Shown: in pieces, positions 1,945 to 64,000 of the stretch | Position numbering within the stretch: position 1 is the first letter of the stretch | Layout of the letters: every line of letters begins with the position of its first letter | DNA from: Ferrimonas balearica DSM 9799 | GTDB lineage: Bacteria; Pseudomonadota; Gammaproteobacteria; Enterobacterales; Shewanellaceae | NCBI RefSeq assembly: GCF_000148645.1 | Contig: NC_014541.1 | Coordinates: 4,115,139 to 4,179,138 of the forward strand | DNA: 64,000 nt | Direction: 5' to 3' | Position numbers and translations under genes: made by a program | Notes under the pieces: generated by a model | What the model saw: the letters and a program-made list of their open reading frames with translations, nothing else | Databases searched by the model: none | Told to the model about the DNA's origin: nothing

Positions 1945-2040
1945 AACGGTGTCCTTGGTCGGGGTTGGCCCCGCACAGATGGTGAAAAAAAGGGGGCCGC
2001 CCACGCCCTGGTGTCGGCCCCGTCAGCACAAGCGTGGCGG

Positions 2041-3012: not shown

Positions 3013-3033
3013 GGTGAATACTCCTTCAAATGC

Positions 3034-4940: not shown

Positions 4941-4944
4941 GGGT

Positions 4945-5943
4945 TTACTCTCCCCGCTTCAACCAGCTCATACGGCCACGCAAGTCCGCACCCACCGCTT
5001 CGATCGGGTGGCTGCACTCTTCGGTCTTGCGACGGTGGTAGTCCGCGTTACCGGACTGGTACTCATCGATCCACTCACGGGCAAACTGGCCGGTTTGGAT
5101 CTCGGTCAGCACCTGCTTCATGGTCTCTTTGGCGCGGTCATCAACGATGCGATCGCCCCGGGTCAGTGCGCCGTAGGAGGCGGTGTCGGACACAAACTGG
5201 TGCATCCGGCTGATGCCGCCTTCGTACAACAGGTCAACGATCAGCTTGAGTTCGTGCAGGCACTCAAAGTAAGCCAGCTCCGGCTGGTAACCGGCTTCCA
5301 CCAGGGTTTCCCAGCCTTTGCGAACCATCGCGATGGCGCCGCCACACAACACCGCCTGCTCACCAAACAGGTCGGTTTCGGTTTCCTCTTTGAAATTGGT
5401 GGTCAGTACCCCACCGCGGGTGCCACCTACGGCATCGGCGTAGGCCAGAGCCTTGGCGTGAGCACTGCCGGTGGCGTCCTGGTGCACCGCCATCAGACAG
5501 GGCACACCGGCACCACGCTCGTACTCGGTACGAACCAGGTAGCCCGGGCCTTTCGGCGCCACCATGGTCACGTCGATCTCGGCGGAGGGTTTGATCAGGT
5601 CATACAGGATGTTGAAGCCGTGGCTGAACATCAGCATCGCGCCCGGCTTGATGTTGGGTTCGATGTGATCGCGGTAGATCTGGGCCTGAGCCATATCCGG
5701 AGTCAGCATCATCACGATGTCGGCGTCCTTCACCGCTTCCGCAAAGGGCACCGGCTGCCAGCCCTCGGACTCGGCCTGTTGCCAGCTCGGGCCACCCGGA
5801 CGCAGACCGATCACCACGTTGGCGCCACTGTCCCGCAGGTTCAGAGACTGGCCGCGGCCCTGACTGCCGTAACCGAGCACGGCAATGGTTTTTCCTTCCA
5901 GCAAACTCGGGTTGGCGTCCGCTTGGTGATACATCTGGGTCAT
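4945..5943 (-). CDS. ilvC: Ketol-acid reductoisomerase IlvC, short class I form
   Basis: NADPH-dependent isomeroreductase, second step of Val/Ile synthesis. The N-terminal Rossmann motif is [13 protein letters not shown], followed by LRPGG in the cofactor-specificity loop. The C-terminal knotted helical domain has the [18 protein letters not shown] metal-binding segment and the conserved HEL and SD.AS.G motifs. At 332 residues it is the short class I enzyme, not the about 490-residue class II enzyme of enteric bacteria. It is the first structural gene of the operon, downstream of the leader attenuator. Confidence 0.95.
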
Positions 5944-5976
5944 GGTGTGGCTCTCCGTAAGTTAATGACCTGAAAA

Positions 5977-6009
5977 TAAAAAACCCCCCGGACCTTTCGG
6001 TGCGGGGGG
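5977..6009 (-). terminator. ilv leader attenuator (rho-independent terminator)
   Basis: A GC-rich hairpin (plus-strand arms ccccccg.acc and ggt.cgggggg around tttc) is followed on the minus strand by a run of T (plus-strand A run 5977-5983). It lies between the leader peptide stop and ilvC, exactly where an amino-acid attenuator belongs. Confidence 0.88.
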
Positions 6010-6033
6010 CTTGGTGTCGTTTTGGCTTCGTTG

Positions 6034-6135
6034 TTAGCTTCTGCTACTGCCTCGTGCCACACCCTGACCCCCGCAGGTGACGATAATCACCACGGTAATC
6101 ACGACTAGCACTAGTTCGATGGCAGTACGGAACAT
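6034..6135 (-). CDS. ilvL: ilv operon leader peptide IlvL
   Basis: A 33-codon ORF starting MFRTAIELVLVVITVVIIVT. Residues 6-19 are almost entirely Ile, Val and Leu, the regulatory codons expected for multivalent attenuation of the ilv operon. It ends about 25 bp before the attenuator hairpin. When charged Val/Ile/Leu tRNAs are scarce, ribosome stalling here should prevent terminator formation. The ORF is too short for ordinary gene finders but its composition and placement are diagnostic. Confidence 0.92.
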   Translation of the reverse strand: MFRTAIELVLVVITVVIIVTCGGQGVARGSSRS

Positions 6136-6191
6136 TGGATTCACTCTCAACAAAACGGAAAAATTTGGTGCTCAAGTTCTGAGCTTTTTTA

Positions 6192-6220
6192 GAGTTAGCA
6201 CAGCGAATTTTCAGATGCAA
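6192..6220 (-). promoter_or_regulatory. Candidate ilv operon promoter
   Basis: On the minus strand TTGCAT (6220-6215) is separated by 17 bases from TAACTC (6197-6192), with a TG one base ahead of the -10 (extended -10). The leader ATG is about 57 bases downstream. The -10 match is only fair. The rest of 6136-6364 is AT-rich and shows no gene. Confidence 0.4.
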
Positions 6221-6364
6221 AGATTAATTTGCACTCAACCGAAAACGACTATGTAACAAATCGTTTCGTTATAGAACCATAGGCAACAACAGAGAAAAAT
6301 GCTTGAATAACCAATACCTTTTTTGACTAAGGCAGGGGTTGGCTCACCACTTGGAGGTGGAAAC

Positions 6365-7882
6365 ATGAGTCTTTCCCGTGTGTTAAGTCGTGGCCAGTTG
6401 GGCATCGAAGCACCCCGGGTCACGGTGGAAGTTCACCTGGGCGGTGGCTTGCCCAGTTTTACCATTGTCGGTCTGCCCGAAGCCTCGGTGCGGGAGTCCC
6501 GCGAGCGGGTTCGGGCCGCCCTGCAGATGGCGGGGTTTGAGTTTCCGGCCCGACGGATTACCGTCAATCTGGCCCCCGCGGATCTGCCCAAACAGGGGGG
6601 GCGGTTCGACCTGCCCATCGCTCTGGGAATTCTTGCCGCATCAAAGCAACTTCCCGACATTTGCCTGCACAATCGTGAATTTTATGGCGAACTCAGCCTG
6701 TCCGGCGCCCTGCGCCCCATCCCCGGAGTGCTGCCCGCTATTGTCGCCGGCCATCAGGCCGGTCACCGTCTCTATCTGCCCGAAGAAAATGGCCCGGAAG
6801 CGGCCCTGGTCAGCGACGCCGATACCCAGCTCAGTCCCTCCCTGCTGGCGCTGGTGGCCGGGTTATTGGGGCAACAGCCCCTGCCCGGCCCTCCGGCTGC
6901 CAGTGCACCGCCACAGCCGAGTGAACACTGCCTGAGCGACATCATCGGTCAGGGCCACGCCAAGCGGGCCCTGATGATCGCCGCCGCGGGTCATCACCAT
7001 CTCTTGCTGATGGGGCCTCCAGGCACCGGAAAAACCCTGTTGGCAAGCCGACTGGCCAGCCTGTTGCCCCCGCTGACCACCGAACAGGCTCTGGCCGTGG
7101 CAGCAATTCACTCGGTAGCAGGGATGAGCCGTACGCCGGCTCAACTCCATCAACGGCCATTTCGGGGACCTCACCATTCCAGCTCTGCGGCTTCCCTGGT
7201 GGGGGGCGGCAGCATTCCTCAACCCGGGGAGATCTCTCTGGCCCACCACGGCGTTCTGTTTCTCGATGAACTGCCGGAGTTTGCCCGCACTGTGCTGGAC
7301 AGCCTCAGAGAGCCCCTTGAAAGCGGCGAAGTGGTGATCTCCCGGGCCAGCGCCAAGCTGACGTTTCCGGCCCAGTTCCAGCTGGTGGCCGCCATGAACC
7401 CTGCTCCCTCCGGCGAAACCGGCCAGCACAGCCGGGATACCCCGGAGCAGATCCGACGCTACCTCTCCCGCCTCTCCGGCCCCTTCCTAGACCGTTTCGA
7501 TCTGACCATTGAGGTGCCCCGCCTGCCCCCCGGCAGCCTGACTCAGGGGCAACGTGAGGGCCCCACCAGTGACGAGGTCCGGGCCTTGGTGGCAGCAGCG
7601 CGACAGCAGGCGCTGACCCGCCAGGGCTGTCTCAATCAGGCGCTTGCCGGCCATCGGCTGGGCCCCGGTGTGGGGATCCCGGCAGCGGGCTTGCAGTACG
7701 CCGAACGGGCCGTCAGTAAGCTGGGATTATCGGTGCGTGCCTTTCACCGCATCCTGCGGGTTTCCCGGACCATCGCCGATCTGGCGGGTGAAGATCAGGT
7801 GGGCAAAGCCCATATGGCGGAAGCGCTGGGTTACCGGGCGATGGATCGTTTACTGAAAGAGTTGTCATCAATGACTGGATAA
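6365..7882 (+). CDS. comM: ComM/YifB-family AAA+ helicase
   Basis: Mg-chelatase-like AAA+ ATPase; ComM is a hexameric branch-migration helicase for integrating transformed DNA. The N-terminal ChlI-type domain (SFTIVGLPEASVRESRERVRAAL) is followed by Walker A GPPGTGKTLLAS, Walker B GVLFLDELPEF and the C-terminal Mg-chelatase domain with RAFHRILRVSRTIADLAG. At 505 residues it is normal size. The start is placed at MSLSRVLSRG because GGAGGT lies about six bases upstream. It is divergent from the ilv operon, the same neighbourhood as in E. coli. Confidence 0.95.
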   Translation: MSLSRVLSRGQLGIEAPRVTVEVHLGGGLPSFTIVGLPEASVRESRERVRAALQMAGFEFPARRITVNLAPADLPKQGGRFDLPIALGILAASKQLPDICLHNREFYGELSLSGALRPIPGVLPAIVAGHQAGHRLYLPEENGPEAALVSDADTQLSPSLLALVAGLLGQQPLPGPPAASAPPQPSEHCLSDIIGQGHAKRALMIAAAGHHHLLLMGPPGTGKTLLASRLASLLPPLTTEQALAVAAIHSVAGMSRTPAQLHQRPFRGPHHSSSAASLVGGGSIPQPGEISLAHHGVLFLDELPEFARTVLDSLREPLESGEVVISRASAKLTFPAQFQLVAAMNPAPSGETGQHSRDTPEQIRRYLSRLSGPFLDRFDLTIEVPRLPPGSLTQGQREGPTSDEVRALVAAARQQALTRQGCLNQALAGHRLGPGVGIPAAGLQYAERAVSKLGLSVRAFHRILRVSRTIADLAGEDQVGKAHMAEALGYRAMDRLLKELSSMTG

Positions 7883-7959
7883 TGCGGCCAAATCCCGGCT
7901 TGTTCGCTGCAGATAGCCTGAATTACCATAACCCCAGAGATGGATTTGAAGGAGTGGTT

Positions 7960-8850
7960 ATGGTGTCCACGCTGCGTGGGCTGCTGTCGTTCAGCGGCTA
8001 CGTCATCAACACCTTGTTCTGGTTTCCCTGGGTGATTCTGCTCGGCCTGCTGAAGCTGCTGCCCATCGCCCCGTTGCGACGGGGCTGCACGGTGCTGCTC
8101 GATGGCATCGCCGGGATCTGGATCGGCATCAACAACCTCAATCAGCGGCTGTTGTCCCGCACCCGGGTGATCACCCATGCCCTGCCGGAACTGAACCCCA
8201 AGCAGTGGTATCTGGTGATCGCCAACCATCAGTCCTGGGTCGATATCCTGATGTTGCAGCGGGTGTTTAACGGCAAAATCCCCTTCCTCAAGTTCTTTCT
8301 CAAGCGCGAGCTGTTGTACGTGCCGTTCCTGGGACTGTGCTGGTGGGCCTTGGATTTCCCCTTTATGCGCCGTTACAGCAAAAGCTTCCTGGCCAAAAAT
8401 CCGCACCTGAAAGGCAAGGACCGGGAAGCCACCCGCAAAGCCTGTGAGAAGTTTCACTACCAGCCCGTCAGCATCATGAACTTTGTCGAGGGCACCCGCT
8501 TTACCCCGGCAAAGAAGGCGCGGCAGGAGAGTCCCTTCCCCACCCTGCTCAAACCCAAGGTGGGCGGCGTGGCCATGTCCCTGGACGCCATGGGGGGCAA
8601 GATGAAAAGACTGCTGGATGTCACCATCTACTACCCGGCCGGTATCCCCAGTTTCTGGGATTACCTGTGTGGCCGGGTACCGAAGGTAGAGCTGTGGATC
8701 GAGGAACACTGCCTCGAACCCATCAACCGGCTGGATTACCAGAAACGTGAAGACAAGGGGACGTACCAGAGCTGGTTAAACCAGATCTGGAGTGAGAAAG
8801 CGGGTAAGCTTGCCGCCCTGGAGCATCAACAAGAGAGACAGGATTGCTGA
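7960..8850 (+). CDS. PlsC-type lysophospholipid acyltransferase, YihG-like (first of tandem pair)
   Basis: Membrane acyltransferase of the LPLAT/AGPAT family. The catalytic HX4D motif is NHQSWVD, and the acceptor-binding region is FVEGTRFTPAKK. The N-terminus is hydrophobic (about residues 10-35), anchoring it in the inner membrane. The ATG has AAGGAG five bases upstream; a longer frame back to 7882 is unlikely. It resembles E. coli YihG, which adjusts acyl chains of membrane lipids. The stop is immediately followed by the start of a paralogue, so the pair is one transcription unit. Confidence 0.88.
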   Translation: MVSTLRGLLSFSGYVINTLFWFPWVILLGLLKLLPIAPLRRGCTVLLDGIAGIWIGINNLNQRLLSRTRVITHALPELNPKQWYLVIANHQSWVDILMLQRVFNGKIPFLKFFLKRELLYVPFLGLCWWALDFPFMRRYSKSFLAKNPHLKGKDREATRKACEKFHYQPVSIMNFVEGTRFTPAKKARQESPFPTLLKPKVGGVAMSLDAMGGKMKRLLDVTIYYPAGIPSFWDYLCGRVPKVELWIEEHCLEPINRLDYQKREDKGTYQSWLNQIWSEKAGKLAALEHQQERQDC

Positions 8851-9807
8851 ATGTTGTCGTTTTTGCCCGCGCCGATTCTGGCGCCGCTTAACGCCGTACT
8901 GGCCTGCCTGAGCGTACTGTTCTGGGGTGGCCTGATCATTCTGCTTGCCCCCATCAAACTGCTGCCCATCCCGGCATTGCGGCGGCAGATCAGTGCTCTG
9001 TGCAACGCCTGCATGCACGGCTGGGTCGCGACCAATTACGGGGTGCTGCGGCTCACCACCAAAACCCGCTGGGAAGTGGATGGCCTGTCCGAAAGCCAGC
9101 TTTCCAAGCAGGGCTGGTATCTGGTTCTGGCCAATCACCTGAGCTGGGCCGACATCGTGGTGGTCACCGTGGTGCTGCGCAACCAGGTGCCGATGCTGAA
9201 GTTCTTCCTCAAACAGCAGCTGCTCTATGTGCCCGTGATGGGACTGGCTTGCTGGGCGCTGGATATGCCCTTTATGCGGCGCTACACCAAGAGCCAGATC
9301 GCCAAAAATCCGGCCCTGAAAGGTAAGGACATTGAAACCACCCGCCGCAGCTGCGAGAAGTTCAAAGACCTGCCCACCTGCGTCATCAACTTTGTCGAAG
9401 GCTCACGCCTGACCCGCTCCAAGCACCAGCGTCAGCGCAGTCCGTTCCGCTACCTGATGAAGCCCAAGGCCGGTGGCATCGCCTTTGCGCTCAATACCCT
9501 GGGCAGTCAGTTCGACCAGTTGCTGGACGTCACCATCGTCTACCCGGATGCACCGGAAAACATCATGTGGGCGTTGCTGCAGGGCAAACTGGACCGCATC
9601 CATGTCAGTGTCCGCACCCTGCCTATGAGCGAAGTCCCCGTCGGCGACTACGACAGCGACAAGGCCTACCGCGTGACCTTCCAGCACTGGCTCAACGGCC
9701 TGTGGCTGGAGAAGGACCGCACCATCGCCAATGTGATCAATCAGCAGCAGGCGCCGGCGCCGTTCTATCAAGAGCTTGAGCCAACTGGTCAAGCTGAGTC
9801 TCGTTAA
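8851..9807 (+). CDS. PlsC-type lysophospholipid acyltransferase, YihG-like (second of tandem pair)
   Basis: Paralogue of the preceding gene with the same layout: N-terminal membrane segment, HX4D motif NHLSWAD, the shared FLKQQLLYVPVMGLACWALDMPFMRRY block and FVEGSRLTRSKHQRQRSPF. Zero spacing from its neighbour indicates an operon born by tandem duplication. The two may act on different acyl-CoA/acyl-ACP or lysolipid substrates; that is inference. The last 71 bp overlap the end of the convergent DUF523 gene. Confidence 0.87.
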   Translation: MLSFLPAPILAPLNAVLACLSVLFWGGLIILLAPIKLLPIPALRRQISALCNACMHGWVATNYGVLRLTTKTRWEVDGLSESQLSKQGWYLVLANHLSWADIVVVTVVLRNQVPMLKFFLKQQLLYVPVMGLACWALDMPFMRRYTKSQIAKNPALKGKDIETTRRSCEKFKDLPTCVINFVEGSRLTRSKHQRQRSPFRYLMKPKAGGIAFALNTLGSQFDQLLDVTIVYPDAPENIMWALLQGKLDRIHVSVRTLPMSEVPVGDYDSDKAYRVTFQHWLNGLWLEKDRTIANVINQQQAPAPFYQELEPTGQAESR

Positions 9808-10237
9808 ACACCTCGATGCCGTGCTGCCGAAGCAGCGCGGCCGTCACCCCCTCTCCCACCACCAACTGACCATCGAAACGGCCTGAATAGATGCGGGTAT
9901 TGCCGCAGGACGGGCTGTTGGCTTTCAGCAGTGCCAGGCGAATCCCATAACGCTGGCACAGCGCCAGGGCCACCCGGGCCCCCCGGTGGAAGGCCAGACT
10001 GACGTCGTCGCCCCCCTCGGTTCTTACCCGGCCCTTTTCGCCAAGCTCTGCGGCTGGCCGGGGCACCGGCAACCCGCCCGCCACCTCGGGGCACACCGTC
10101 AACAGCAACCCCGCCTTCTCCCACTGGGCTAAACGGGGGTCTGCCAGCCCTTTGGCCTGGCCGTCATAACGTACCGGTTGGCCCAGCAAACAGGCGCTGG
10201 TCAGCACTCGGAAACCGGACGATTGTTGACAATCCAT
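9737..10237 (-). CDS. DUF523 family protein
   Basis: Typical DUF523 motifs are visible: SACLLGQPVRYDG near the N-terminus, CPEVAGGLPVPRPAAE, and LLKANSPSCGN. These conserved cysteines suggest a metal or redox role, but the function is unknown. The start MDCQQSSGFRVLTSACLLG was preferred, with GGAG about ten bases upstream, giving 166 residues, normal for the family. A much longer upstream frame would run through the prp regulatory region and is not family-like. The 3' end overlaps the acyltransferase gene on the other strand. Confidence 0.8.
   Translation of the reverse strand: MDCQQSSGFRVLTSACLLGQPVRYDGQAKGLADPRLAQWEKAGLLLTVCPEVAGGLPVPRPAAELGEKGRVRTEGGDDVSLAFHRGARVALALCQRYGIRLALLKANSPSCGNTRIYSGRFDGQLVVGEGVTAALLRQHGIEVFNETQLDQLAQALDRTAPAPAAD
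10223..10232. promoter_or_regulatory. Candidate GntR operator, copy 1
   Basis: ttgttgacaa lies within a perfect attgt-tg-acaat dyad at the start of the DUF523 gene. The pattern fits the TNGT..ACNA type of site known for FadR/FCD-subfamily GntR regulators. An identical decamer occurs 132 bp further on, directly upstream of the GntR gene. Confidence 0.45.
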
Positions 10238-10335
10238 CTCATTCTCCATTCGTCGAAAGTCTAACCCACCCTGAGAAAGCCCCAATTTTAGCGGCTTTAA
10301 TCGTAATCCGTTGCGAAAGATTGCCACTGATTCGA

Positions 10336-10349
10336 TGACGCAAGCGTCA
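10336..10349. repeat. Inverted repeat upstream of the GntR-prp operon
   Basis: tgacgc-aa-gcgtca, a perfect six-base inverted repeat with a two-base spacer, six bases before the second ttgttgacaa copy. Its placement in the promoter region suggests a protein-binding site; the protein is not known. Confidence 0.4.
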
Positions 10350-10354
10350 ACATT

Positions 10355-10364
10355 TTGTTGACAA
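10355..10364. promoter_or_regulatory. Candidate GntR operator, copy 2, overlapping a -35-like TTGACA
   Basis: ttgttgacaa repeats the decamer at 10223-10232. It contains a consensus -35 hexamer TTGACA (10358-10363); no good -10 is visible at the right distance. A regulator bound here would occlude the promoter, consistent with autorepression by the GntR protein encoded 67 bp downstream. Confidence 0.5.
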
Positions 10365-10430
10365 TAATGGTGATCGCGCGCACAGTTTCTGCACCTTTTT
10401 TCATCAGCGCCCTGCGCAAATGGACAGTCT

Positions 10431-11099
10431 GTGAGCGAAAGCAAGCAACCGACCTTAGCCGACCGCACCCTGAGTGAGCTGCAAAATGCCATCATTCAGG
10501 GCGACCTTGCACCGGGCAGCAAGATCAATGAGCAGGAGCTGGCAGCCCGCTATGGTGTCAGCCGCGGCCCGCTGCGGGAAGCCCTGCAGCGACTGGAACA
10601 GCGCCGCCTGGTGGAGCGCATCCCCCATGTCGGCGCCACGGTGGTCAGGCTGACGCCGGAAAAGCTCCGCGACCTTTACCAGGTCCGGGCCGAGCTCGAG
10701 GCGATGGCCTGCCGGCTTGCCGCGCAACGCATCACCCCATCTCAGGTCAACGCCCTGACCGAACTGCTCGACCGCCAGCAGGTGGTGTTCTCACAGCCTG
10801 AGCTGCCCCCCATTCAGGACGACATCGATTTCCATTTTGGCCTGATCCAGGCCAGTGGCAATTCCACCCTGATCACCACCCTCACCGGTGATCTCTACTA
10901 CCAGCTACAGATGTACCGCAACCAATGCAGCAGTGGACGACGTCCACTCGAGGCGCTGGCGCAACACCGCCGCATCCTCGACGCCGTGGCCCAGGGCGAC
11001 GGTGAACTGGCCGCGCTGCTGATGCGCCGCCATATCGAGGCCGGCGCCCGTCACACCGCCCAGCTGCTGCGTCAAACCATGGAGGAGTTAACCGCATGA
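10431..11099 (+). CDS. GntR-family (FCD/FadR-like) regulator of the methylcitrate operon
   Basis: The N-terminal winged helix-turn-helix is clear ([40 protein letters not shown]). The C-terminal all-helical FCD ligand-binding domain contains the usual Asp/His metal-site residues ([24 protein letters not shown]). Start is GTG with only a weak ribosome site. The stop overlaps the prpB ATG, so regulator and enzymes are co-transcribed. The likely ligand is a propionate-pathway intermediate, inferred from context. It replaces the sigma-54 activator PrpR used by enterics. Confidence 0.9.
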
Positions 11100-11968
11100 C
11101 CCCAGGACAGAAATTTCGCCACGCCGTCGCCACCGCCAAGCCGTTGCAGATCGTCGGTACCGTTAACGCTTACTTTGCCCTGATGGCGGAGCGGGTTGGC
11201 CATCAGGCGCTGTACCTCTCCGGGGCCGGTGTTGCCAACGCCTCCTACGGCCTGCCGGATCTGGGCATGACCTCCATGAATGACGTGCTGATCGACGCCA
11301 GCCGCATCACCTCCGCCACCGATCTGCCGCTGCTGGTCGACATCGACACCGGCTGGGGCGGCGCTTTCAACATCGCCCGCACCATCAAAGAGTTCGAGAA
11401 AGCCCGTGTCGCCGCCGTGCATATGGAAGACCAGGTCGCCCAGAAGCGCTGCGGTCACCGCCCCAACAAGGCGGTGGTCAGCATCGACGAGATGTGTGAC
11501 CGCATCAAAGCCGCCGTGGACGCCCGTACTGACGAAAGCTTCGTCATCATGGCCCGCACCGATGCGGTGGCGGTTGAGGGATTGGAGTCCGGCATTGAGC
11601 GCGCCCAGGCCTATCTGGAAGCCGGTGCCGACATGATCTTTGCCGAAGCGCTGACCGAACTGGACCAATACCGCCAGTTCAAGGCCCAGGTAAAAGCCCC
11701 GATCCTGGCCAACATGACCGAATTTGGTAAGACCGAGCTGTTCGACAAGGCCGACCTGTATGACGCCGGTGCCGACATGGTGCTCTACCCGCTGGGCGCC
11801 TTCCGGGCCGCCAACGCTGCCGCCCTCAAGGTGTTCGAGGCCCTGATGCAGGACGGTCACCAGCGCAGTCAGGTCGCGGCGATGCAGACCCGCGCGGAGC
11901 TGTACGACTTCCTCGGCTACCACAGCTACGAGGACAAGCTGGACACCCTCTTCAAAGAAGGCAAGTGA
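11096..11968 (+). CDS. prpB: 2-methylisocitrate lyase PrpB
   Basis: Cleaves 2-methylisocitrate to pyruvate and succinate, the last step of the methylcitrate cycle for propionate. It belongs to the isocitrate lyase/PEP mutase superfamily: metal-binding DIDTGWGG, active-site loop [12 protein letters not shown] with the catalytic cysteine, and AEALTEL. 290 residues is the normal size. It overlaps the GntR gene by 4 bp and precedes prpC by 50 bp. Confidence 0.96.
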
Positions 11969-56116: not shown

Positions 56117-57061
56117 ATGCAGGAGAGTCTGGCCCAGATACGGCGCTTGGCGATATTTGCCACGGTGGTCGAACAAGGCTCTTTCAGTGCCGCCGGGCGC
56201 AAGCTGGGGCTGGGGAGGGGTAAGGTCAGTGAACAGATCTCCGCTCTGGAGCAAGCCCTGTCAGTGCGCCTGCTGCAGCGCTCAACCCGGCAGCTCAGCG
56301 TCACCGCCGAAGGTCAGGTGCTTTATCGCCACTGCCGGGACCTGTTGCCCCAGGCCAGTCAGGGGTTGCGGGAAGTGCAGGATCTTGGGCCGGAGCCAAT
56401 GGGACGACTGCGGCTCACCACCACCTCTGACGTGGCCCAGCAGGTGCTCAGTCCCTTTTTGAGCCGCTTTTGCCAGCAGTATCCGGGCATTCAGCTCGAC
56501 CTTCAGCTGGCCGATGCGGTATTGAATCTGGTTGAAGAGGATATCGACATCGCCATTCGCATCGGCACGCCGGTGGACTCATCGATGGTCGGCATCGAGC
56601 TGGGCGCACTGCCCATGGGGCTGTACGCCGCCACCTCTTATCTGGCGCAATGGGGCGTCCCCGAGAGCCTGCCGGACCTGTCCGCCCACCGTGGCGTTCA
56701 GATGACCCGGATGCCCAATCTCAGCACCCTGATGCTGAGCAATGATGAGGGGGTCAGCCAACCTGCCGGGCTGCCGGTATTCCACCGGACCGATACGCCT
56801 GCCGGTAACGCCACGCTGGTGGAGCAGGGCTTGGGGATCGGCCTGTTGCCGCACTTTACCCTGAATCAGGCGGTCAGCGAGGGGCGGGTTCGTCCGGTGC
56901 TGCCTCAGTGGCAATACCGCCAACTGGCCATTACGCTGCTGTTTCCCTCCCGGGCCCAACTGCCTCGTCGAAGTCGCCTGTTTATCGACGCCCTGCGGGA
57001 CTGGCTTCGTGATGGTGAGGGCAAAATGCGATTGCAGCCGGCTCAGCTCAACAGCAAGTAA
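56117..57061 (+). CDS. LysR-type regulator, divergent from the SDR gene
   Basis: 314 residues. N-terminal helix-turn-helix RRLAIFATVVEQGSFSAAGRKLGLGRGKVSEQISALEQALSVRLLQRSTRQLSVTAEG; C-terminal effector domain of the CrgA/DsdC-like type (DIDIAIRIGTPVDSSMVG). Divergent arrangement suggests it regulates the neighbouring NAD(P)-binding gene. Its 3' end overlaps the DUF2956 remnant by 19 bp on the other strand. Confidence 0.87.
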   Translation: MQESLAQIRRLAIFATVVEQGSFSAAGRKLGLGRGKVSEQISALEQALSVRLLQRSTRQLSVTAEGQVLYRHCRDLLPQASQGLREVQDLGPEPMGRLRLTTTSDVAQQVLSPFLSRFCQQYPGIQLDLQLADAVLNLVEEDIDIAIRIGTPVDSSMVGIELGALPMGLYAATSYLAQWGVPESLPDLSAHRGVQMTRMPNLSTLMLSNDEGVSQPAGLPVFHRTDTPAGNATLVEQGLGIGLLPHFTLNQAVSEGRVRPVLPQWQYRQLAITLLFPSRAQLPRRSRLFIDALRDWLRDGEGKMRLQPAQLNSK

Positions 57062-57261
57062 GCCGCAAAGCCTGCCCAGCTCAACACCAGCAACGCCCAT
57101 GCCACTCGGCCTGAGCTGGCTGGGCCCGCCCCCTCCATGACCACCTCTTCCGCCTCTTCGGCATCGCGGGCTTTGGCCCGTCGGGCCTGCTTGCGGGCCT
57201 TATCCGCGGCGCGGGCCTTGGCTTTCTGCTGCTTCTTGTACTCAGCGATGCCCTTCTCCAA
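57043..57261 (-). pseudogene. 3' remnant of a DUF2956 gene interrupted by the GInt island
   Basis: Reads LEKGIAEYKKQQKAKARAAD, continues as a Lys/Arg/Ala-rich charged helix, and ends in one membrane helix (VAWALLVLSWAGFAAYLLLS). This is the C-terminal two-thirds of DUF2956, whose intact proteins begin with a Ser/Thr/Gln-rich segment ending in a QG[I/V].KGI motif. Homology stops at about 57259-57262, right at the att core, and upstream in frame there is a TAA (57300-57298) with no ATG. The 5' part should lie to the right of the window. Confidence 0.78.
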
Positions 57262-57271
57262 TCTAGGAGAA
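57254..57271. repeat. Left attachment core of the island
   Basis: ttctcc-aatcta-ggagaa: perfect six-base inverted arms around a six-base centre, the geometry of a tyrosine-recombinase crossover site. The left arm is DUF2956 coding sequence and the right arm is the island edge. aatctaggag (57260-57269) recurs at 63991-64000. Confidence 0.75.
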
Positions 57272-57296
57272 ATGTTATGAACAATGATTCTCGGAC

Positions 57297-57324
57297 TTTA
57301 CAAGTGGTGATTTATCATTAACAT
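57297..57324 (+). promoter_or_regulatory. Candidate gin operon promoter
   Basis: TTTACA (57297-57302) and TAACAT (57319-57324) with a 16-base spacer, 26-31 bases inside the island edge and 38 bases before the ginA ATG. Confidence 0.5.
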
Positions 57325-57327
57325 CTT

Positions 57328-57355
57328 ACTCAATGGCATTACCAATGGATTGAGT
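57328..57355. repeat. Inverted repeat between gin promoter and ginA
   Basis: actcaat (57328-57334) and attgagt (57349-57355) with a 14-base spacer that itself contains a repeated caatgg/ccaatgg. Placed between the -10 box and the start codon, it is a plausible operator for autoregulation or a recombinase arm site. Confidence 0.45.
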
Positions 57356-57362
57356 GGGTTAC

Positions 57363-58925
57363 ATGATTCAAACCGAGCAAGGATGCGTTGTTGAGACCTC
57401 AGTCATCACCAACTGCCGCTACAAAAAACCAATCGCAACCATCAACGAAGATGGTGAGGTTGTTATTGTGTACAGCCCGCATGATCAGAAGACTGGCGGA
57501 ACTCTGATCAAAAAGGTCACGCTGCTAAACATGGTTGCGTACAACGACAAGGGGGAGGTGCTGTCCTTTAAGCCCATTGACGTAGCCAACAACTTCATCC
57601 TCAGCAAACACCTCAATGACGGCGTACAAAAGTCGGATCGGTACTCACAGGGATTGGCAATGTACTTCCAGTTCGTTCTGGATAGCCAAGCTGAGTGGGA
57701 TGCCGCCTTCGAGCGGGGCGATGTCGACCCCGAGTGGGGGGATGTGCGTCCTGACTGGAACCACTTCCCACGCGCAAAGTCAGAACGCCTGACTTATCAG
57801 TTTCGCGACAAACTCAAAGAGCTTGCCACAGCCAGTGATGGGGCAATGGCCAAAAGCGTGGCCAAGAGCTACCTAAGTGCCGTTGTAAGCTTTTACAAAT
57901 ACTGGCTCCATCGCTCCCCCCATCTGATCTCAGGTGAACCGTTCGAGTTCGAGAACATCAGCCTACTTCTCGATGCTGGCGCAACGAGCATGAAACGCCA
58001 TTACGCCAAGCAAATCCAAACCACAGATCTGCGCCTAAAGTTCGCTAAACCAAGCCTTTCCGGTGGAACATCGCTCGACCACCTCCGTCGTGACCTCAAG
58101 CCATTCACAAATGAAGAGTGGCGAGTACTGCACAATGTCATCGAGAAATCACGCCGAGTTATTCGCAAGGGAAAAAGTGGCAGGTTGGAGTCACTCCCCA
58201 TCGAGTATTCTCTGCACTTCATGACTTGTCGCTTCACCGGATTGCGTTCCGAAGAAGCAGCCAGCCTTCACCTTGGCCAAATAGTTCGACCTGCCACCAA
58301 GATTGAAGAGGGGCGGGAGGTGTTCACACGAGGGATATTGAGTTTGGGTGTGGGCGATCAGTACGGCTCATGGACGAAAACGCCTGAGGCTGGCAACAAA
58401 TCACGTACCACCATCATTCCCGCCAAACTGATGCAATCCCTCTATGAGTACACGCAGTCTGAGCGTTACAAGAAACGTCTGGCCAAGTTTAAGCTCTGGT
58501 GTGAGCAGCAACATGAATCAGGCAACACGGCGTTGTTTGAGGGGCATGACGGCGTTAACCGAGATCGGCATTACCTGTTCATTTCACAGACGGGTAAGCC
58601 GATGATGCTCAGCGTCAATGAATTCAGCAACCGCTGGACAGAAGTCCGGGACACAGCCAATCGCACCGAGGGGGTGCAGCGCCCAATCGTTGGCTCGCTC
58701 CACAACTTAAGAGCCACCTTTGCCGTTAATGTGTTCCGCCACCTCCTGAAAACGATAACACCGGACGATGCACTCGCTCGGGTTTCCTCCCTGTTGGGTC
58801 ACGAAAATTACGACACCACTTTGATGTATCTGAAGATCGCGCAAGACCATCCTAGTGCGGATGAAATTTACGAAGACATTCTGAATTACACCGGGGTATT
58901 CGATGACTGGGAGGGTGCCCAATGA
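57363..58925 (+). CDS. ginA: GInt tyrosine recombinase GinA
   Basis: 520 residues from ATG (a GTG three codons earlier is possible). N-terminal core-binding region with a SAM-like helical domain (about 80-185), C-terminal catalytic domain (about 245-505). Numbered from the ATG, the catalytic set is complete: Arg295 (FTGLRSEEA), probable Lys339, His447 and Arg450 (HNLRATF), His480 (LGHENYDT) and Tyr489 (LMYLKI). Overlaps ginB in ATGA. Essential for integration and excision in characterised GInts. Confidence 0.87.
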   Translation: MIQTEQGCVVETSVITNCRYKKPIATINEDGEVVIVYSPHDQKTGGTLIKKVTLLNMVAYNDKGEVLSFKPIDVANNFILSKHLNDGVQKSDRYSQGLAMYFQFVLDSQAEWDAAFERGDVDPEWGDVRPDWNHFPRAKSERLTYQFRDKLKELATASDGAMAKSVAKSYLSAVVSFYKYWLHRSPHLISGEPFEFENISLLLDAGATSMKRHYAKQIQTTDLRLKFAKPSLSGGTSLDHLRRDLKPFTNEEWRVLHNVIEKSRRVIRKGKSGRLESLPIEYSLHFMTCRFTGLRSEEAASLHLGQIVRPATKIEEGREVFTRGILSLGVGDQYGSWTKTPEAGNKSRTTIIPAKLMQSLYEYTQSERYKKRLAKFKLWCEQQHESGNTALFEGHDGVNRDRHYLFISQTGKPMMLSVNEFSNRWTEVRDTANRTEGVQRPIVGSLHNLRATFAVNVFRHLLKTITPDDALARVSSLLGHENYDTTLMYLKIAQDHPSADEIYEDILNYTGVFDDWEGAQ

Positions 58926-60793
58926 GCCGCAGACGCATCAGGATCGAACCCACCCAAATCGTTAAAACGGCCAGTGTCAGCACCCTGTCCATTGATGGCA
59001 TGGAGTTCCGCACAAGTAATGGGAGGTCATTTCACCTAAAGCGTCTGCGCTATCGGTGGGTGCCAACACTGAGGCAGATCGAAAAGCACCCCGAGGCGCT
59101 GGTGAATGCGGAGCGAGACGACCAGATCCGTAGCTTACACAAGTTGCTGCAATCAAATCCTAACCGGGCATTGGCTGAGCTTAGAACTGGTGGGCTAGTC
59201 TATTTTCGCTACCTCGATAGCTTCAATTATTCAGGCGACCTGTTTGATATAGACACCATGGATGCAGCCCTCAAACACTTCAACAGGCTCGCATTAACAG
59301 GGGAAGCACCATCAGCAGCAACGCATGTTCTAGCCTTTCTACAGTATTGCCTCGGCTTGATGGGGCGAGCAGCCGACCGCCGCAAGTTGCCCAAAGTGAA
59401 GAAACCTGAAGCCAGCGGCAGACAGGGGGCATTGGATGCTGCGTCCATTAAGCTCGTTGCCCAAGTGCTGAGGAAGGGTCAATCGGGGTTCGCCAAGCAC
59501 ATTGAGGACGGCACGATACCGGAGATCCATCCCTGTTTTGACGAAGCGATCTTTAATAACACCGCCAAAGAGCAGGGTTGGTCGCCGAGGCAGTGTGCCG
59601 ATAAGAAAAAGGGGCTGAGGTACTTAATGCGGCCATCGCAACGAGGAGGGAGCGAATACTTGCAGTCCTCGGCTCTGACAGCGCAGCAGCTTGAGTTTAA
59701 GCCTATTGCCGATCATGCCAGCCGCTGCGCCCTGTACACCTTCTTCATGCTCACTGGCATGAACTTCAGTGTGCTGGCCTCAATGACATTTGGCGATGTC
59801 ACATTTACCAGCATCCACGGTGGGCGATACATTTTTCGTGGCCTAAAAGCCCGAGCTGGCTACAAAGAGATCGACAACTCTTTGGGCCTTAGCAAACACA
59901 CCAAAGAGATGATCGAGGCTTGGTTTTCGACATCAAAGCAGATCTATCGGCGAATGGGCCATGAGCCAACAGCGGGCAAGCCGCTGTTCCCGTATTTCAC
60001 TCGCAATAACGAGGTTTGGGATTTCACCCAGTGTGGCACCAGACCTCAAAGTATCAACTTAGTGATTGAAAAGGTGGTTGGGATCCCAATCTCTGCCAGC
60101 AAGTTCAGGAACACCAAAGCGGACATGCTGATGCGTGCGACCGAAAGTGTGTTTATTGTCAGTCAGGGCTTAAACAACACCGTCAAGGTCGTTGAACGTA
60201 GGTATACCAGTGGAGTGCAAGGTGACCATGAAAACAACCTCAAAGCCGTAAACGACGCTCAGTACGCCATTGCCAAGGGTGAGGAATTTTCAGCGGCGGT
60301 ACAACAGGCAAAAGTGCTCAACAGCGACATTCTTTCCGACTATGACTACAAACAACGTCTGATGCGTGGTAATGCCCCGAAAACCACACTGACACCCTCG
60401 GGTATCCGCTGCCAAGGAGCCAGCCCGGACAAACTGATGTCCGAGTCTCGGAAAGCAAAAAATATGGGGTTCCCGCTGTCAGAGGGAGCGGAAAAATGCA
60501 CCGACTTCCTAGCCTGTTATGACTGCGATAAGCATATGCTGATCGCCTCTGAGACGGACATTTGGCTGATGCTGTCCTTCCAGACTCAACTGGCGAGGAT
60601 GGAAGACATTCCCGCCAAAAACTCTGCGCCAAAAGACAAGGCGAGGATGATTGAAGCGGTGATCGCAAGAACCCTGCAAAGAATGCAGGAAAAGGCTCCT
60701 AAGGCATATCAGCAAGCGGTCGAACGGATTGACCGAGCCGAATATCACCCGCTCTACAAGAGCCACATCAGCATCCAGTATTTAGTGGGGTAA
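58922..60793 (+). CDS. ginB: GInt recombinase-family protein GinB, catalytically degenerate
   Basis: 623 residues with a recognisable tyrosine-recombinase-like domain (about 260-435), but the active site is mostly gone. The position of the first Arg reads LTGMNFSVL (Asn281), HxxR reads SKFR (Ser393, Arg396), and the third His is lost (QGLNNT); Tyr428 (ERRYTS) remains. A C-terminal Cys/His cluster (Cys497, Cys526, Cys532, Cys535, His538) may bind zinc. Likely an architectural partner of GinA/GinC. The ginC start is six bases after the stop. Confidence 0.83.
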   Translation: MSRRRIRIEPTQIVKTASVSTLSIDGMEFRTSNGRSFHLKRLRYRWVPTLRQIEKHPEALVNAERDDQIRSLHKLLQSNPNRALAELRTGGLVYFRYLDSFNYSGDLFDIDTMDAALKHFNRLALTGEAPSAATHVLAFLQYCLGLMGRAADRRKLPKVKKPEASGRQGALDAASIKLVAQVLRKGQSGFAKHIEDGTIPEIHPCFDEAIFNNTAKEQGWSPRQCADKKKGLRYLMRPSQRGGSEYLQSSALTAQQLEFKPIADHASRCALYTFFMLTGMNFSVLASMTFGDVTFTSIHGGRYIFRGLKARAGYKEIDNSLGLSKHTKEMIEAWFSTSKQIYRRMGHEPTAGKPLFPYFTRNNEVWDFTQCGTRPQSINLVIEKVVGIPISASKFRNTKADMLMRATESVFIVSQGLNNTVKVVERRYTSGVQGDHENNLKAVNDAQYAIAKGEEFSAAVQQAKVLNSDILSDYDYKQRLMRGNAPKTTLTPSGIRCQGASPDKLMSESRKAKNMGFPLSEGAEKCTDFLACYDCDKHMLIASETDIWLMLSFQTQLARMEDIPAKNSAPKDKARMIEAVIARTLQRMQEKAPKAYQQAVERIDRAEYHPLYKSHISIQYLVG

Positions 60794-60799
60794 GAATCG

Positions 60800-62776
60800 A
60801 TGAACATGGCATTGCATCAGGTACTGCCTGAGCAGGAAGAAAACCCGTTTGTCTCGTTCAATTCAGCGGGGGAAGGTAAGTCCCGACTGTACGATGAAAT
60901 CTGGGATTTCACAGCGCTAGCGCAACCAAAGCGGGAGGTTCGATTCACTGGGGTTGACCTGACCCACCGGCACAACATTCAGCGCCTGACCGCCCAGTAC
61001 ATGCAGCACAAAATAGCCCAGTCGAGCGCCAATCACTTCACCGTACACGCACTGGCTAGGTTCAAGGATAAGTTATGGGGCATCGCCAAGCACTGGGGCA
61101 AATCGGATTACTCTTTACTCTCTCATGACTGGGAGTGGCGTGACTGCAAAGCCTCTTTGAAGGGGAAATACGGTATCGAGACTCTGAAAGCTTTTGCAGG
61201 GATCATTAACGCACTGCATGACTTGGGGGTGACGTCCCGCCATACCACAGAGCGGGAAATGGTGGTGCTGAAGCATGTGGAGAAAACCGAACAACAGCAT
61301 GTGGCTTTCCCTCCGGCCATGCATGCCCATTGGTTGACCGCAGCGGTTGAAATTGTTGAGAAATATCATCCTTACCGACAGGAAATCTCAACCTGCATGA
61401 TGGAGTATACACGCCAGATGCTTGCCATTTATGACCAACATTTGGTGGAGAGTGGTACTACTGATTTCACACATGACGAACAGGTGAAGACTAGTGCTCG
61501 TTGCTGTAGAGCAGCACGCAAAATTGAGGCTGGTTCTAGCGTGCCGGGGCTGAAATGCGACTCGGATGCCACCTTTGTTTCCCGATTGGTGATGGCCAGC
61601 TTTATGGTGGTGGGGTTGTTTTCCGGGGCAAGAAAAACCGAACTCGTCTCGATGAATCCAAAAAGTTACCAGATAAAAGACGGTATCCCGGTGCTGATGG
61701 GTTTGACCTCGAAAGGTAACGAAGGGCAACCCATCACAGCGGTTTGGCAGACCCATCCCATTGCCAAGCAAGCGCTGGAGTTGGCCTACGACGCAACACA
61801 GTATGCACGAGAACTGCACAAGGTAATTTTGAGTCGGCATCGGGCCAAAGGACGTATTGATGAGGATCGCTATCAACGCGCCATGGTCGAATTGGGAGCT
61901 GCGTTCATACCAGCAGCCCTGCGCAACACGGCATTCGATGGCCAGCTCCGTACCTCTTATCACCTGAGCAGTATTGATAAAAGCTTTAACGCAGAGCGCT
62001 ATTTCCAACCCGCAACGGCTGATGACGTCCGAGAGTTTGATTTGCTTAACCCATCCAGAGCCGGAGAGCTGGAAGTCGGCGGTTACTCCACCAAGTTTTC
62101 ACCTCACGATATGCGGCGGTCTTTCGCTGTTTTTCTGGTGCGGAACAAACTGGGGAATTTGCTGACCATCAAGCACCAGTTCAAACACAAAAACCTCTCG
62201 ATGTCTGGGTGGTACGCCAACAATGCCGAACTGGCCCGCATGGAAGGGATCATGCTGGATGGCGAATTGACGGCAATGTTTGATGAAGCCATGGAAGATG
62301 TGGCTGTCGATGCGCTGGATGAGGTGTACAACGAGTCGAGCCACTTATCTGGGGTGGAGGGAGAGCGCATTGCCAAGTCCAAGGAGGAAGCGCTACGTAG
62401 GGGTGAAACCATCCTGTTAAGTCGCAGCGAATTGCGGGCTCTGGTCAGAAGTGGCGACAAGTCCATCGTTATGCTCCCAACTGGATCTTACTGCACCAAC
62501 CCCACCTGTGAGCGCCTGTGCTCCATCAGTCAATTCCACACTGAGAGCAAGCCCTGTGAGCACGAGATCATCACAGACCGAGGGGCACGAATTAAAGCCA
62601 GAGAGCACCGGAGTCTGGTCGAGAGCTTCAGGGAGATGAACGCCATGGAGGACTACGCGCTCTCCTCCATTCTGGAGGGGGAAAGACAGAAAATTTTGTA
62701 TTTGGAGCAGACGTTGACCCAACACAATATCGACTTTGAACCCTTCAAGGATGAGATTAAGGCGGTAATGGCATGA
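60800..62776 (+). CDS. ginC: GInt tyrosine recombinase GinC
   Basis: 658 residues. The catalytic domain (about 255-480) keeps Arg278 (FSGARKTEL), Lys305 (LTSKGNEG), His436 and Arg439 (SPHDMRRSF), His463 (FKHKNLSM) and Tyr472 (GWYANN). A C-terminal extension (about 500-658) carries Cys565, Cys570, Cys574, Cys586 and His588, a probable zinc site, and a terminal helix. Overlaps ginD in ATGA, so all four genes are translationally linked. Confidence 0.86.
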   Translation: MNMALHQVLPEQEENPFVSFNSAGEGKSRLYDEIWDFTALAQPKREVRFTGVDLTHRHNIQRLTAQYMQHKIAQSSANHFTVHALARFKDKLWGIAKHWGKSDYSLLSHDWEWRDCKASLKGKYGIETLKAFAGIINALHDLGVTSRHTTEREMVVLKHVEKTEQQHVAFPPAMHAHWLTAAVEIVEKYHPYRQEISTCMMEYTRQMLAIYDQHLVESGTTDFTHDEQVKTSARCCRAARKIEAGSSVPGLKCDSDATFVSRLVMASFMVVGLFSGARKTELVSMNPKSYQIKDGIPVLMGLTSKGNEGQPITAVWQTHPIAKQALELAYDATQYARELHKVILSRHRAKGRIDEDRYQRAMVELGAAFIPAALRNTAFDGQLRTSYHLSSIDKSFNAERYFQPATADDVREFDLLNPSRAGELEVGGYSTKFSPHDMRRSFAVFLVRNKLGNLLTIKHQFKHKNLSMSGWYANNAELARMEGIMLDGELTAMFDEAMEDVAVDALDEVYNESSHLSGVEGERIAKSKEEALRRGETILLSRSELRALVRSGDKSIVMLPTGSYCTNPTCERLCSISQFHTESKPCEHEIITDRGARIKAREHRSLVESFREMNAMEDYALSSILEGERQKILYLEQTLTQHNIDFEPFKDEIKAVMA

Positions 62777-63225
62777 GTGAGCAACTGAAATTATCCGAGG
62801 CACGATTACAGGCGGCTTTTGAGCGTTTGGTGTCGGGAAAGCCGCTTAAGGTAAAGGCCAGCGGCAGGCTGACACTGAACAAAATCAACAATGAGGCTGG
62901 ATTCGCCAAAGGCTATGTCCACAAGTTCCCTGAGTTTATGGAGCGGATTAAGCCGCTGATCGAGGACTACAACTATAAACGCGAACAAGCACTGGCATCT
63001 GGACTGGACATCGAGATTGATGCCCCGTTGTCGGAGATGGATGTCCTCAGAGCCAAATTGAAGAAAGCTGAAAGGCTTAAAGAGAAATACCGTACTGAGC
63101 GTGACAATGCGGTTGAGGCAAGAAAGCAGTTGGAGATGAACTATTCAGAACTGTCATTCCGATACTACGAATTGCAAGAAACAGTTAAAGCGCAAGGTTC
63201 CGTTATGACACCAATCAAGCGTTAA
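62773..63225 (+). CDS. ginD: GInt accessory protein GinD (helix-loop-helix/coiled coil)
   Basis: 150 residues. An N-terminal DNA-binding-like region (LQAAFERLVSGKPLKVKASG, then RLTLNKINNEAGFAKGYVHK, like a short helix-turn-helix) is followed by a long charged coiled coil (about 85-140, VLRAKLKKAERLKEKYRTER). It resembles TnpC of Tn554-like elements in size and layout. In GInts the fourth gene is required for recombination. Last gene of the operon; an inverted repeat follows 11 bp later. Confidence 0.82.
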   Translation: MSEQLKLSEARLQAAFERLVSGKPLKVKASGRLTLNKINNEAGFAKGYVHKFPEFMERIKPLIEDYNYKREQALASGLDIEIDAPLSEMDVLRAKLKKAERLKEKYRTERDNAVEARKQLEMNYSELSFRYYELQETVKAQGSVMTPIKR

Positions 63226-63236
63226 TGGAATTTTGA

Positions 63237-63278
63237 GTGAGGCACTCACAAATCTCACTTTCACTGTGAGTGCCTCAC
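63237..63278. repeat. Perfect 14-bp inverted repeat between ginD and the cargo gene
   Basis: gtgaggcactcaca (63237-63250) and tgtgagtgcctcac (63265-63278) with a 14-base spacer. There is no T tract on either side, so a pure terminator is less likely than an operator. The spacer carries further ctcac/cac half-sites. It ends 20 bp before the cargo gene start. Confidence 0.8.
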
Positions 63279-63298
63279 ATTGGTAAAGGGACACCAAT

Positions 63299-63817
63299 AT
63301 GTCAGAAAATATGAAAAAAAAGCTACTTGGCCACTATGAAGAGGGGCTTATTGATTTCTATTACCTCTCAAACTGGGCAAACAAAAGGGTTGTAGACTTT
63401 TTTTATCTTGATGATGACTGCGTTAATGGTGACAAATACGAGATGAAGGATCATTTCGAACTTAAAGTGAGAAAAATTCATAGCACAGAGTTGTATGCGA
63501 AAGCACAAATCTGGGCAGGAAAAGATAAGCGACGCTCTCTGACAGATGAGGAAAAGGCAAACATTCGTTTTCAAGAGTACTCCGCTATGATGGATTTAAT
63601 CTGTGAGGTATTCACAGATAAAGAGCTTAACAAGCTGTACGCCTCTGTTCGTAAAATCAAATCTGAGCGGAGTAAGAGAGGTGACGATAAGCCCACCAAA
63701 ATCACCGTACGCTATGGAACAAGAGATGCCCTGAACAGCCTAGCCAAAGAGCGTGGATTAACCATGGATGCTTTGCTTCAGGAGTTGATTAAGGGATGCA
63801 ATGTGCCTTCTGCGTGA
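63299..63817 (+). CDS. Cargo protein with candidate ribbon-helix-helix C-terminus
   Basis: 172 residues, hydrophilic and basic, unlike any family I recognise over its first 125 residues (MKKKLLGHYEEGLIDFYYLS onward; several aromatic clusters, no signal). The C-terminal PTKITVRYGTRDALNSLAKE then RGLTMDALLQELIKGC has the strand-helix-turn-helix pattern of ribbon-helix-helix regulators. AAAGGGA precedes the ATG. It may bind the adjacent inverted repeat and control gin genes or itself. The only substantial cargo gene visible. Confidence 0.65.
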   Translation: MSENMKKKLLGHYEEGLIDFYYLSNWANKRVVDFFYLDDDCVNGDKYEMKDHFELKVRKIHSTELYAKAQIWAGKDKRRSLTDEEKANIRFQEYSAMMDLICEVFTDKELNKLYASVRKIKSERSKRGDDKPTKITVRYGTRDALNSLAKERGLTMDALLQELIKGCNVPSA

Positions 63818-63950
63818 GGTTAAGTGTGACTCTGTAGTTGCACCCTCCATACAGTTGCGCTTCGGGGAGATGATTCGGGTAAGAAGGAAGTTGGCGTTTC
63901 TTCCAGAAGGCTTTAAGCCTTTTTTGGCACCTAAATTGGATGATTTCTAA
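63801..63950 (+). CDS. Possible small ORF (49 aa) overlapping the cargo gene end
   Basis: ATG at 63801 begins MCLLREVKCDSVVAPSIQLR and continues FGEMIRVRRKLAFLPEGFKP to a TAA at 63948. It overlaps the preceding gene by 17 bp in another frame. No obvious ribosome site apart from aaggga about six bases upstream. The basic centre and the hairpin in its distal part leave it uncertain whether this is a gene or chance. Confidence 0.35.
   Translation: MCLLREVKCDSVVAPSIQLRFGEMIRVRRKLAFLPEGFKPFLAPKLDDF
63907..63925 (+). terminator. Candidate terminator at the end of the cargo
   Basis: aaggctt-t-aagcctt followed by tttt. A short stem of low GC, so a moderate terminator at best; it lies inside the 49-codon ORF. 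Confidence 0.45.
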
Positions 63951-63990
63951 GCTCTATTTTGATACTTTGTAATAGTGTCAAATGAAGTCG
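63926..63990. other. AT-rich right end of the island
   Basis: About 65 bases of mostly A and T lead up to the right repeat copy, matching the short AT-rich 3' end reported for GInts. No gene besides the tail of the small ORF. Confidence 0.55.
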
Positions 63991-64000
63991 AATCTAGGAG
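63991..64000. repeat. Right copy of the island direct repeat (truncated by window end)
   Basis: aatctaggag, identical to 57260-57269. It is preceded by aagtcg instead of ttctcc, so the left arm of the core site differs here. Read on the minus strand in the frame of the remnant, an interrupted DUF2956 would continue a few codons and stop at TGA 63980-63978. Confidence 0.7.

Follow-up and report, generated by a model that had tools for sequence, protein, structure and literature searches.

A 9.8-kb Element, Very Probably an SE, Interrupts a DUF2956 Gene of Ferrimonas balearica DSM 9799

Overview of the Element

A 64,000-nucleotide stretch of the Ferrimonas balearica DSM 9799 genome (bases 4,115,139-4,179,138 of the single 4,279,159-bp contig, NC_014541.1; hereafter the window) ends inside a mobile element that has split a gene of the DUF2956 family. 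Comparison of sequences indicates that this element is very probably an SE, with the core genes IntA-Tfp-IntB-Srap, and neither a GInt nor a near-minimal element. The part within the window occupies 57259..64000 (+ strand); ~3.06 kb more lies beyond the window end at 64000, where positions are given as window equivalents (window position = position in the fetched stretch, L003, + 55861). The left terminal motif, C, begins at 57259, the right terminal motif, C', ends at window-equivalent 67051, and a 6-bp footprint follows at 67052-67057. The element thus measures 9,793 bp from C to C' and 9,799 bp with the footprint (~9.8 kb), and its right end adjoins the N-terminal half of the DUF2956 gene. 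Its G+C content is 50%, against 62% in the host flanks. It is a well-delimited SE, previously undescribed, of ordinary size and belonging to a known class.

Core Genes and Proteins

SEs are defined by a gene cluster in the order IntA (with the RHRY residues), Tfp (without them), IntB (long, with RHRY) and Srap (PMC10782965); a gammaproteobacterial host is also among the published criteria. The element studied here has the same order. Its four core genes, three long and one short, all lie on the + strand and overlap or are separated by a short gap; judged by their residues they encode an active recombinase, an inactive one, a second active recombinase and then a small protein. We assign the element to the SEs because all four core proteins match, in order, the proteins of SE-Pda04Ya311 of pAQU1 (NC_016983.1), with the identities given below (pairwise BLASTP).

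The first gene, intA (57354..58925, +), encodes a tyrosine recombinase of 523 aa as listed from a GTG codon (PF00589, E 3.5e-7), which is 44% identical to IntA of SE-Pda04Ya311 (E 4e-148); residues R298, H450, R453, H483, and Y492 are invariant in all 13 aligned IntA sequences. The third, intB (60800..62776, +), encodes a large tyrosine recombinase of 658 aa (PF00589, E 1.6e-6; 36% identity to pAQU1 IntB, E 2e-119), in which R278, H436, R439, H463, and Y472 are invariant in 11/11 aligned sequences. Near the IntB C-terminus, C565, C570, C586, and H588 are likewise invariant in the 11 sequences and form a possible metal site. The fourth gene, srap (62773..63225, +), specifies an auxiliary protein of 150 aa that was recognized by homology to pAQU1 Srap (48% identity over 130 aligned columns, E 5e-38) and matches no Pfam family at cut-off.

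Between the two active recombinases lies tfp (58922..60793, +), which encodes a tyrosine-recombinase-fold protein of 623 aa with a degenerate catalytic set, identified by its homology to pAQU1 Tfp (30% identity, E 1e-82); it has no match in Pfam, NCBIfam, or PHROGs. The counterpart motifs, as read from the alignment, are TGMN, SKFR, and LNN, from which the first arginine and the histidines are missing. R396 and Y428 are nevertheless invariant in 10/10 aligned sequences, despite the description of Tfp as lacking the RHRY set. Cysteines C497, C526, C532, and C535 are also invariant in this alignment and could be candidate metal ligands.

The alignments drew on 14 related loci: L049 and L052 were left out of alignment A2; L049, L052, L053, and L055 out of the IntA alignment (A3); and L042, L043, L044, L049, L052, and L054 out of the IntB alignment (A4). 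L049 and L052 were omitted on account of short Tfp frames from a simple open reading frame (ORF) finder, the others for truncated, overlong, or missing frames. The Tfp alignment (A5) comprised the window, the second SE of the host, pAQU1, and seven of the 14 loci picked for spread.

Insertion Site and Termini

The host genome holds two separate matches to the DUF2956 family profile (PF11169), each on the - strand: positions 31-101 of the profile at 57055..57264 (E 1.6e-18), where the last bases reach into attL, and positions 1-33 at window-equivalent 67055-67153. A preliminary description of the window had placed the insertion in a DUF2956 gene, and the recovery of both parts bears this out. 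When the flanks were joined in silico, one open DUF2956 frame resulted (E 9.6e-38). The interrupted N-terminal half comprises 44 codons from the likely start and then a TAA created by the 6-bp footprint. All 13 same-genus relatives searched carry a single unsplit DUF2956 gene that covers at least positions 4-99 of the profile, and among them only the host genome has it split; this is the comparison with empty-site relatives that the preliminary description had proposed.

SE termini are described as imperfect inverted repeats of ~19 bp once 6 bp have been taken off the 3' end (PMC10782965). When removals of 0-12 bp were tried here, only that of 6 bp worked, giving 8/12 matches where all others give at most four. 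The left terminal motif C, CAATCTAGGAGAAATGTTA (57259..57277, +), forms an imperfect inverted repeat with C', the two arms agreeing at 11/19 bases, eight of which fall among the first nine. The right end is an inverted, not a direct, copy of the terminal motif, and it stands beside the DUF2956 N-terminal half.

The left junction reads ...GATGCCCTTCTC|CAATCTAGGAG and the right junction CCTAGACTG|TTAGTC|GATGCCCTTGGCG; in the 13 relatives the intact gene reads, in window orientation, ...CTTCTC|GATCCCCTTGGCG..., with variants. The 6-bp spacer at attL, CTTCTC (57253..57258, +), is target-derived: it is identical in seven of the 13 empty sites (attB), one or two bases off in five (CTTTTC 2, TTTCTC 2, TTTTTC 1), and diverged in one (GTGCTG). 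The 6 bp at attR, TTAGTC, occur at none of the 13 sites, which is what a donor footprint would lead one to expect. The element thus has target-derived bases at attL and foreign ones at attR, and attB is split between the two when set against the SE-free genomes (other species of the genus). From this pattern, the empty site of the host species should read CTTCTC|GATGCCCTTGG.

A 10-bp direct repeat at both junctions, CGATGCCCTT, was considered as a target duplication and rejected, as the intact gene of the relatives holds two close, similar native copies.

The host is among 37/60 genomes searched in which DUF2956 is present, and 174/394 genomes of the order have matches; short single matches in this order-wide survey were left unreviewed. 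Besides the host, three genomes (G061, G070, and G304) have two DUF2956 matches among the matches listed, and G061 and G304 retain a full-length copy. G070 has no more than two partial matches, located on separate contigs of a draft assembly; the smaller falls below cut-off, and the break is at profile position 21/22. Since this break falls at another point, DUF2956 may have been disrupted independently elsewhere in the order. By reading of translations, the larger piece in G070 (L070, L063, L066) lies some kb from type I restriction-modification-like genes and from a long reverse-transcriptase-like protein. The extra N-terminal fragment in G061 (L064; profile 1-40) ends near the region of the SE insertion described here; by reading, no integrase is seen among the ORFs of >=150 aa listed for that locus.

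Cargo Genes and Dyads

About 3.8 kb of the element lies 3' of srap and holds three genes, which encode a possible DNA-binding regulator, a metallophosphoesterase, and a lipoprotein-like protein. The product of the first (63299..63817, +; 172 aa) has a C-terminus that weakly resembles a ribbon-helix-helix DNA-binding domain (E 0.0026, under the cut-off, for RepA copy-control in NCBIfam; E 0.031 for the MazE7 antitoxin in the PDB), and it has no plasmid match at E <= 0.01. The metallophosphoesterase (window-equivalent 64013-64810, +; Pfam Metallophos, E 2.9e-13) has its best relative outside the host genome at 43%, with matches at E <= 1e-20 in 15/394 genomes of the order, host included; every match in 118 plasmid records is below 60%, and in PADLOC there is one partial match (PDC-S10, E 1.4e-11). 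The third gene (window-equivalent 65036-66355, -) encodes a lipoprotein-like protein of 439 aa with proline-aspartate repeats. Its match to SslE extends over ~5% of that profile (E 2.1e-10) and scores well under the cut-off; matches to other proteins, found in 4/144 genomes, host included, are confined to the first 105 residues, repeat included. These searches returned no close relatives of the three genes.

Just upstream of the 172-aa gene is a doublet of dyads with the consensus TGTGAGnnnCTCACA (63236..63279), their starts 29 bp apart; this doublet also forms a hairpin whose stem is 14 bp long. Another doublet, of identical 29-bp spacing, lies at window-equivalent 66848-66891, ~160-200 bp inside the right end. 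A scan that allowed up to three mismatches, with a pattern itself derived from the element, found five dyads near TGTGAGTGCCTCACA in the element (L003 7375, 7404, 7741, 10987, and 11016), four of which make up the two doublets and one of which is single (L003 7741, window 63602); 57 kb of host DNA gave none at the same threshold. On account of its ribbon-helix-helix resemblance, the 172-aa protein is a candidate binder of the dyad doublets.

Two other repeats were noted. The sequence AGTGGTGA has three exact copies in the element, one near the left end and two near the right end. Two direct copies of 51 nt, 80% identical and with starts 53 bp apart, occupy window-equivalent 66588-66691, in the interval from the last cargo gene to the right end.

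Alternative Readings

The preliminary description had named the element a GInt (ginABCD) island. Its gene inventory, three long recombinase-family genes plus a small auxiliary one, stands, and GInts are built alike, with four essential genes of which three are recombinase-type (one degenerate) and one is a small auxiliary (Bardaji et al. 2017, PMC5385486). The family assignment does not stand, since gene order and homology are those of an SE. In GInts, ginA and ginB are full recombinases, ginC is degenerate and ginD is small (PMC5385486, PMC10214605); here the degenerate recombinase is second and the third gene has R, H, R, H, and Y. All four proteins have ordered homology with those of a tested SE, and the literature presents GInt and SE proteins as separable sequence clusters. 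Two further features would suit a GInt and are not distinctive: 3.8 kb after the fourth gene lies within the 2.5-70 kb cargo range published for GInts, and the 3' end is AT-rich, with 38.6% G+C in the last 140 bp of the element. (An AT-rich tail had indeed been noted in the preliminary description from the window itself, the last 181 bases of which have 41% G+C against 62% in the host flank.) GInts are flanked by direct imperfect repeats of 10-17 nt; CGATGCCCTT is present at both junctions here, and the repeat native to the target gene can account for it. A GInt is very unlikely.

Still harder to credit, and almost certainly wrong, is a near-minimal element ending at a copy of the left terminus at 63991-64002. 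The preliminary description took the element to be framed by AATCTAGGAG repeats; the repeat is present at both positions that it named, with a match that is really 12 bp long (AATCTAGGAGAA), and this exact copy of the left terminus is the sole other one in the genome. The copy is direct, not inverted, and DUF2956 sequence does not resume after it; the N-terminal half of that gene lies ~3 kb further on, beside an inverted motif that obeys the 6-bp rule. The right repeat is internal because the metallophosphoesterase and lipoprotein-like genes lie beyond it. An end at 64000 is accordingly rejected: the downstream DNA continues with two more genes and then reaches the DUF2956 N-terminal half on the - strand, so that the extension proposed earlier recovered the missing half, and did so behind two more island genes. 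Cargo that had been put at ~0.75 kb comes to ~3.8 kb, because the element extends another ~3.06 kb and carries two more genes there, and with the true right end 3 kb past the window the picture of an almost bare recombination machine has to be given up. Nor would a cargo-free element have been new, for an SE of 6,353 bp that lacks cargo and the engineered pGInt0 are already published.

What the internal copy (63991..64000, the 12-mer extending to window-equivalent 64002, +; directly before the metallophosphoesterase gene) might represent is a separate matter. If the element were composite, the copy would be a remnant or a usable second left end, and the right 3.06 kb would have moved, or would still move, as a non-autonomous unit with the same recombinases. 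The identity with the terminus over 12 bp, in direct orientation, points that way, as does the finding that AATCTAGGAGAA has exactly two copies in the 4.28-Mb genome, both within the element (left end and 63991-64002); its reversed control pattern has none. When the body of the element was shuffled 1000 times with dinucleotides preserved, a 12-mer of the terminal 30 bases recurred on the same strand in eight shuffles and on either strand in 18, and none of the 14 distinct related loci scanned has a second copy of any 12-mer from its left 60 bases within the part of srap and cargo covered. Chance origin is therefore unlikely, but the copy is suggestive only, because the repeat was picked by eye ahead of the chance test and overlaps the Shine-Dalgarno-like AGGAGAAGGAG; the match spans AGGAGAA before the metallophosphoesterase gene and so may be partly a ribosome site. 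The right-end motif is absent just upstream of the internal copy, unlike in a tandem insertion, and no relative has the arrangement. Left-end repeats are, moreover, not rare in relatives: in a comparison of the left 60 bases with the next 9.8 kb on the same strand (a shorter reach where a locus ends earlier), an 11-mer was repeated in 5/14 loci and a 12-mer in 2/14, in both cases ~150 bp from the left end. With both strands and the whole locus included, 11-mers were found in 8/16 loci (14 distinct records; L045/L067 and L047/L068 are apparently identical pairs). We consider a composite element improbable. A fuller, two-layered version, with an internal second left end and cargo-flanking doublets that are possibly bound by the ribbon-helix-helix protein, and in which either the whole 9.8-kb SE or the 3.06-kb segment would circularize, is somewhat less probable again. 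In relatives, the left-end palindrome TAACTTTTAAAGTTGA occurs twice in L042 and L051, 150 bp apart.

Several points weigh against the SE assignment favoured here, or limit it. AlphaFold2 modelled Tfp poorly (mean pLDDT 59.9), and a Foldseek search with this model against the PDB gave no match at E <= 0.001; the top 20 rows are Cre, Tre, or XerA by title, except 3c28, the title of which names no protein. When the profile of Tfp was compared with those of IntA and IntB (hhalign), neither match reached significance (E 0.27 and 0.32), and Y428 can therefore not be placed firmly at the nucleophile position. The terminal inverted repeat is short, and its 11/19 matches are strong only across the first nine bases. 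To read TTAGTC as a donor footprint assumes that the ancestral attB was CTTCTC-like, which rests on 13 other species. GInt proteins were not compared by BLAST, and the rejection of a GInt thus rests on gene order and SE homology. The nearest relatives, in Vibrio and Photobacterium, occupy other sites, and a single assembly cannot reveal a circle, strand bias, or the absence of an empty site.

Relatives and a Second Cluster

SE-Pda04Ya311 shares the four core genes and their order with the present element and differs in its site and in its cargo, which includes a DUF262 protein and blaGMA-1. Tfp relatives occur in 36 plasmid records (in 25 of them with a query cover of 80% or more), at 14 genome loci (12 at 40-45% identity and two at 30%), and in 6/394 genomes of the order at E <= 1e-20, host included. 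The closest found, at 40-45%, belong to SE-like elements of Vibrio and Photobacterium (e.g., L045, L047, and L051; V. parahaemolyticus pVP7-1 and pHLA). Judged by the DNA upstream of them, 11 of the 14 loci share an insertion site at the 3' end of a single gene, which we take to be of the YcgN family. DUF2956 was not found by tblastn (E <= 0.01) in the 14 genome loci and four plasmid loci with related core genes, some of which end before the right end of the element. A full-text literature search found no mention of DUF2956 as an SE site, supplementary lists of known SE sites being outside its scope.

In the Vibrio/Photobacterium SEs at L024, L042, L045-L048, and L051-L053, a conserved stretch follows srap (e.g., AAGTGTAATGGGG...TTTCTGCCCC) and then gives way to divergent cargo; it is possibly a terminator or a cargo-joining site. 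The real minimal case is SE-AmaTe101, a cargo-free SE of 6,353 bp, to be set beside the 3.8 kb that follow srap here. An engineered minimal GInt, pGInt0, also appears in PMC5385486, as does a proposal of 6-nt staggered cuts for GInts.

The host genome encodes a second Tfp homologue (31% identity over query residues 392-615) in a four-gene cluster of like layout. This SE-like cluster (L039, G000:C1:1760000-1779500, ~1479-11755, -; ~10.3 kb, by comparison with G007) encodes proteins of 478, 607, 677, and 168 aa, the first three of which are 30, 21, and 24% identical to IntA, Tfp, and IntB; PF00589 scores below cut-off, and Srap is assigned by position only. By reading of translations, its neighbours are a carbonic-anhydrase-like gene on one side and an M61-peptidase-like gene on the other.

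Proposed Mechanism

In SE-Pda04Ya311, attS formation is reported to show a strong strand bias (PMC10214605). For other SEs, published accounts describe a copy-out circle formed by one-strand exchange, with the donor copy kept and the 6 bp to the left passed to the new right end. For the present element the mechanism is a prediction, for which the sequence supplies only the two ends, the pattern of the footprint, and core genes that are not interrupted. By analogy, IntA and IntB, aided by the degenerate Tfp and by Srap, would nick a single strand and exchange it between attL and attR. Replication would turn the resulting figure-eight into a double-stranded circle (attS) in which the 6 bp to the left of C are retained; the donor copy would remain in place. 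On integration of the circle at a new attB, the retained 6 bp would end up at the new right end. TTAGTC would then be the fingerprint of the previous donor site, and the 6 bp of the site from which the circle arrived would therefore differ from those of DUF2956 in the 13 relatives.

Implications

Our results correct both the family and the size of the element and define its ends to the base, together with a predicted donor footprint. Through its internal copy of the left motif, the element offers a simple way to ask whether SE cargo moves separately; if the two-layered arrangement were true, the cargo could exit as a non-autonomous passenger that controls its own movement. With a second, distantly related SE-like cluster in its genome, F. 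balearica DSM 9799 is also a possible strain for probing cross-reaction in SE recombination.

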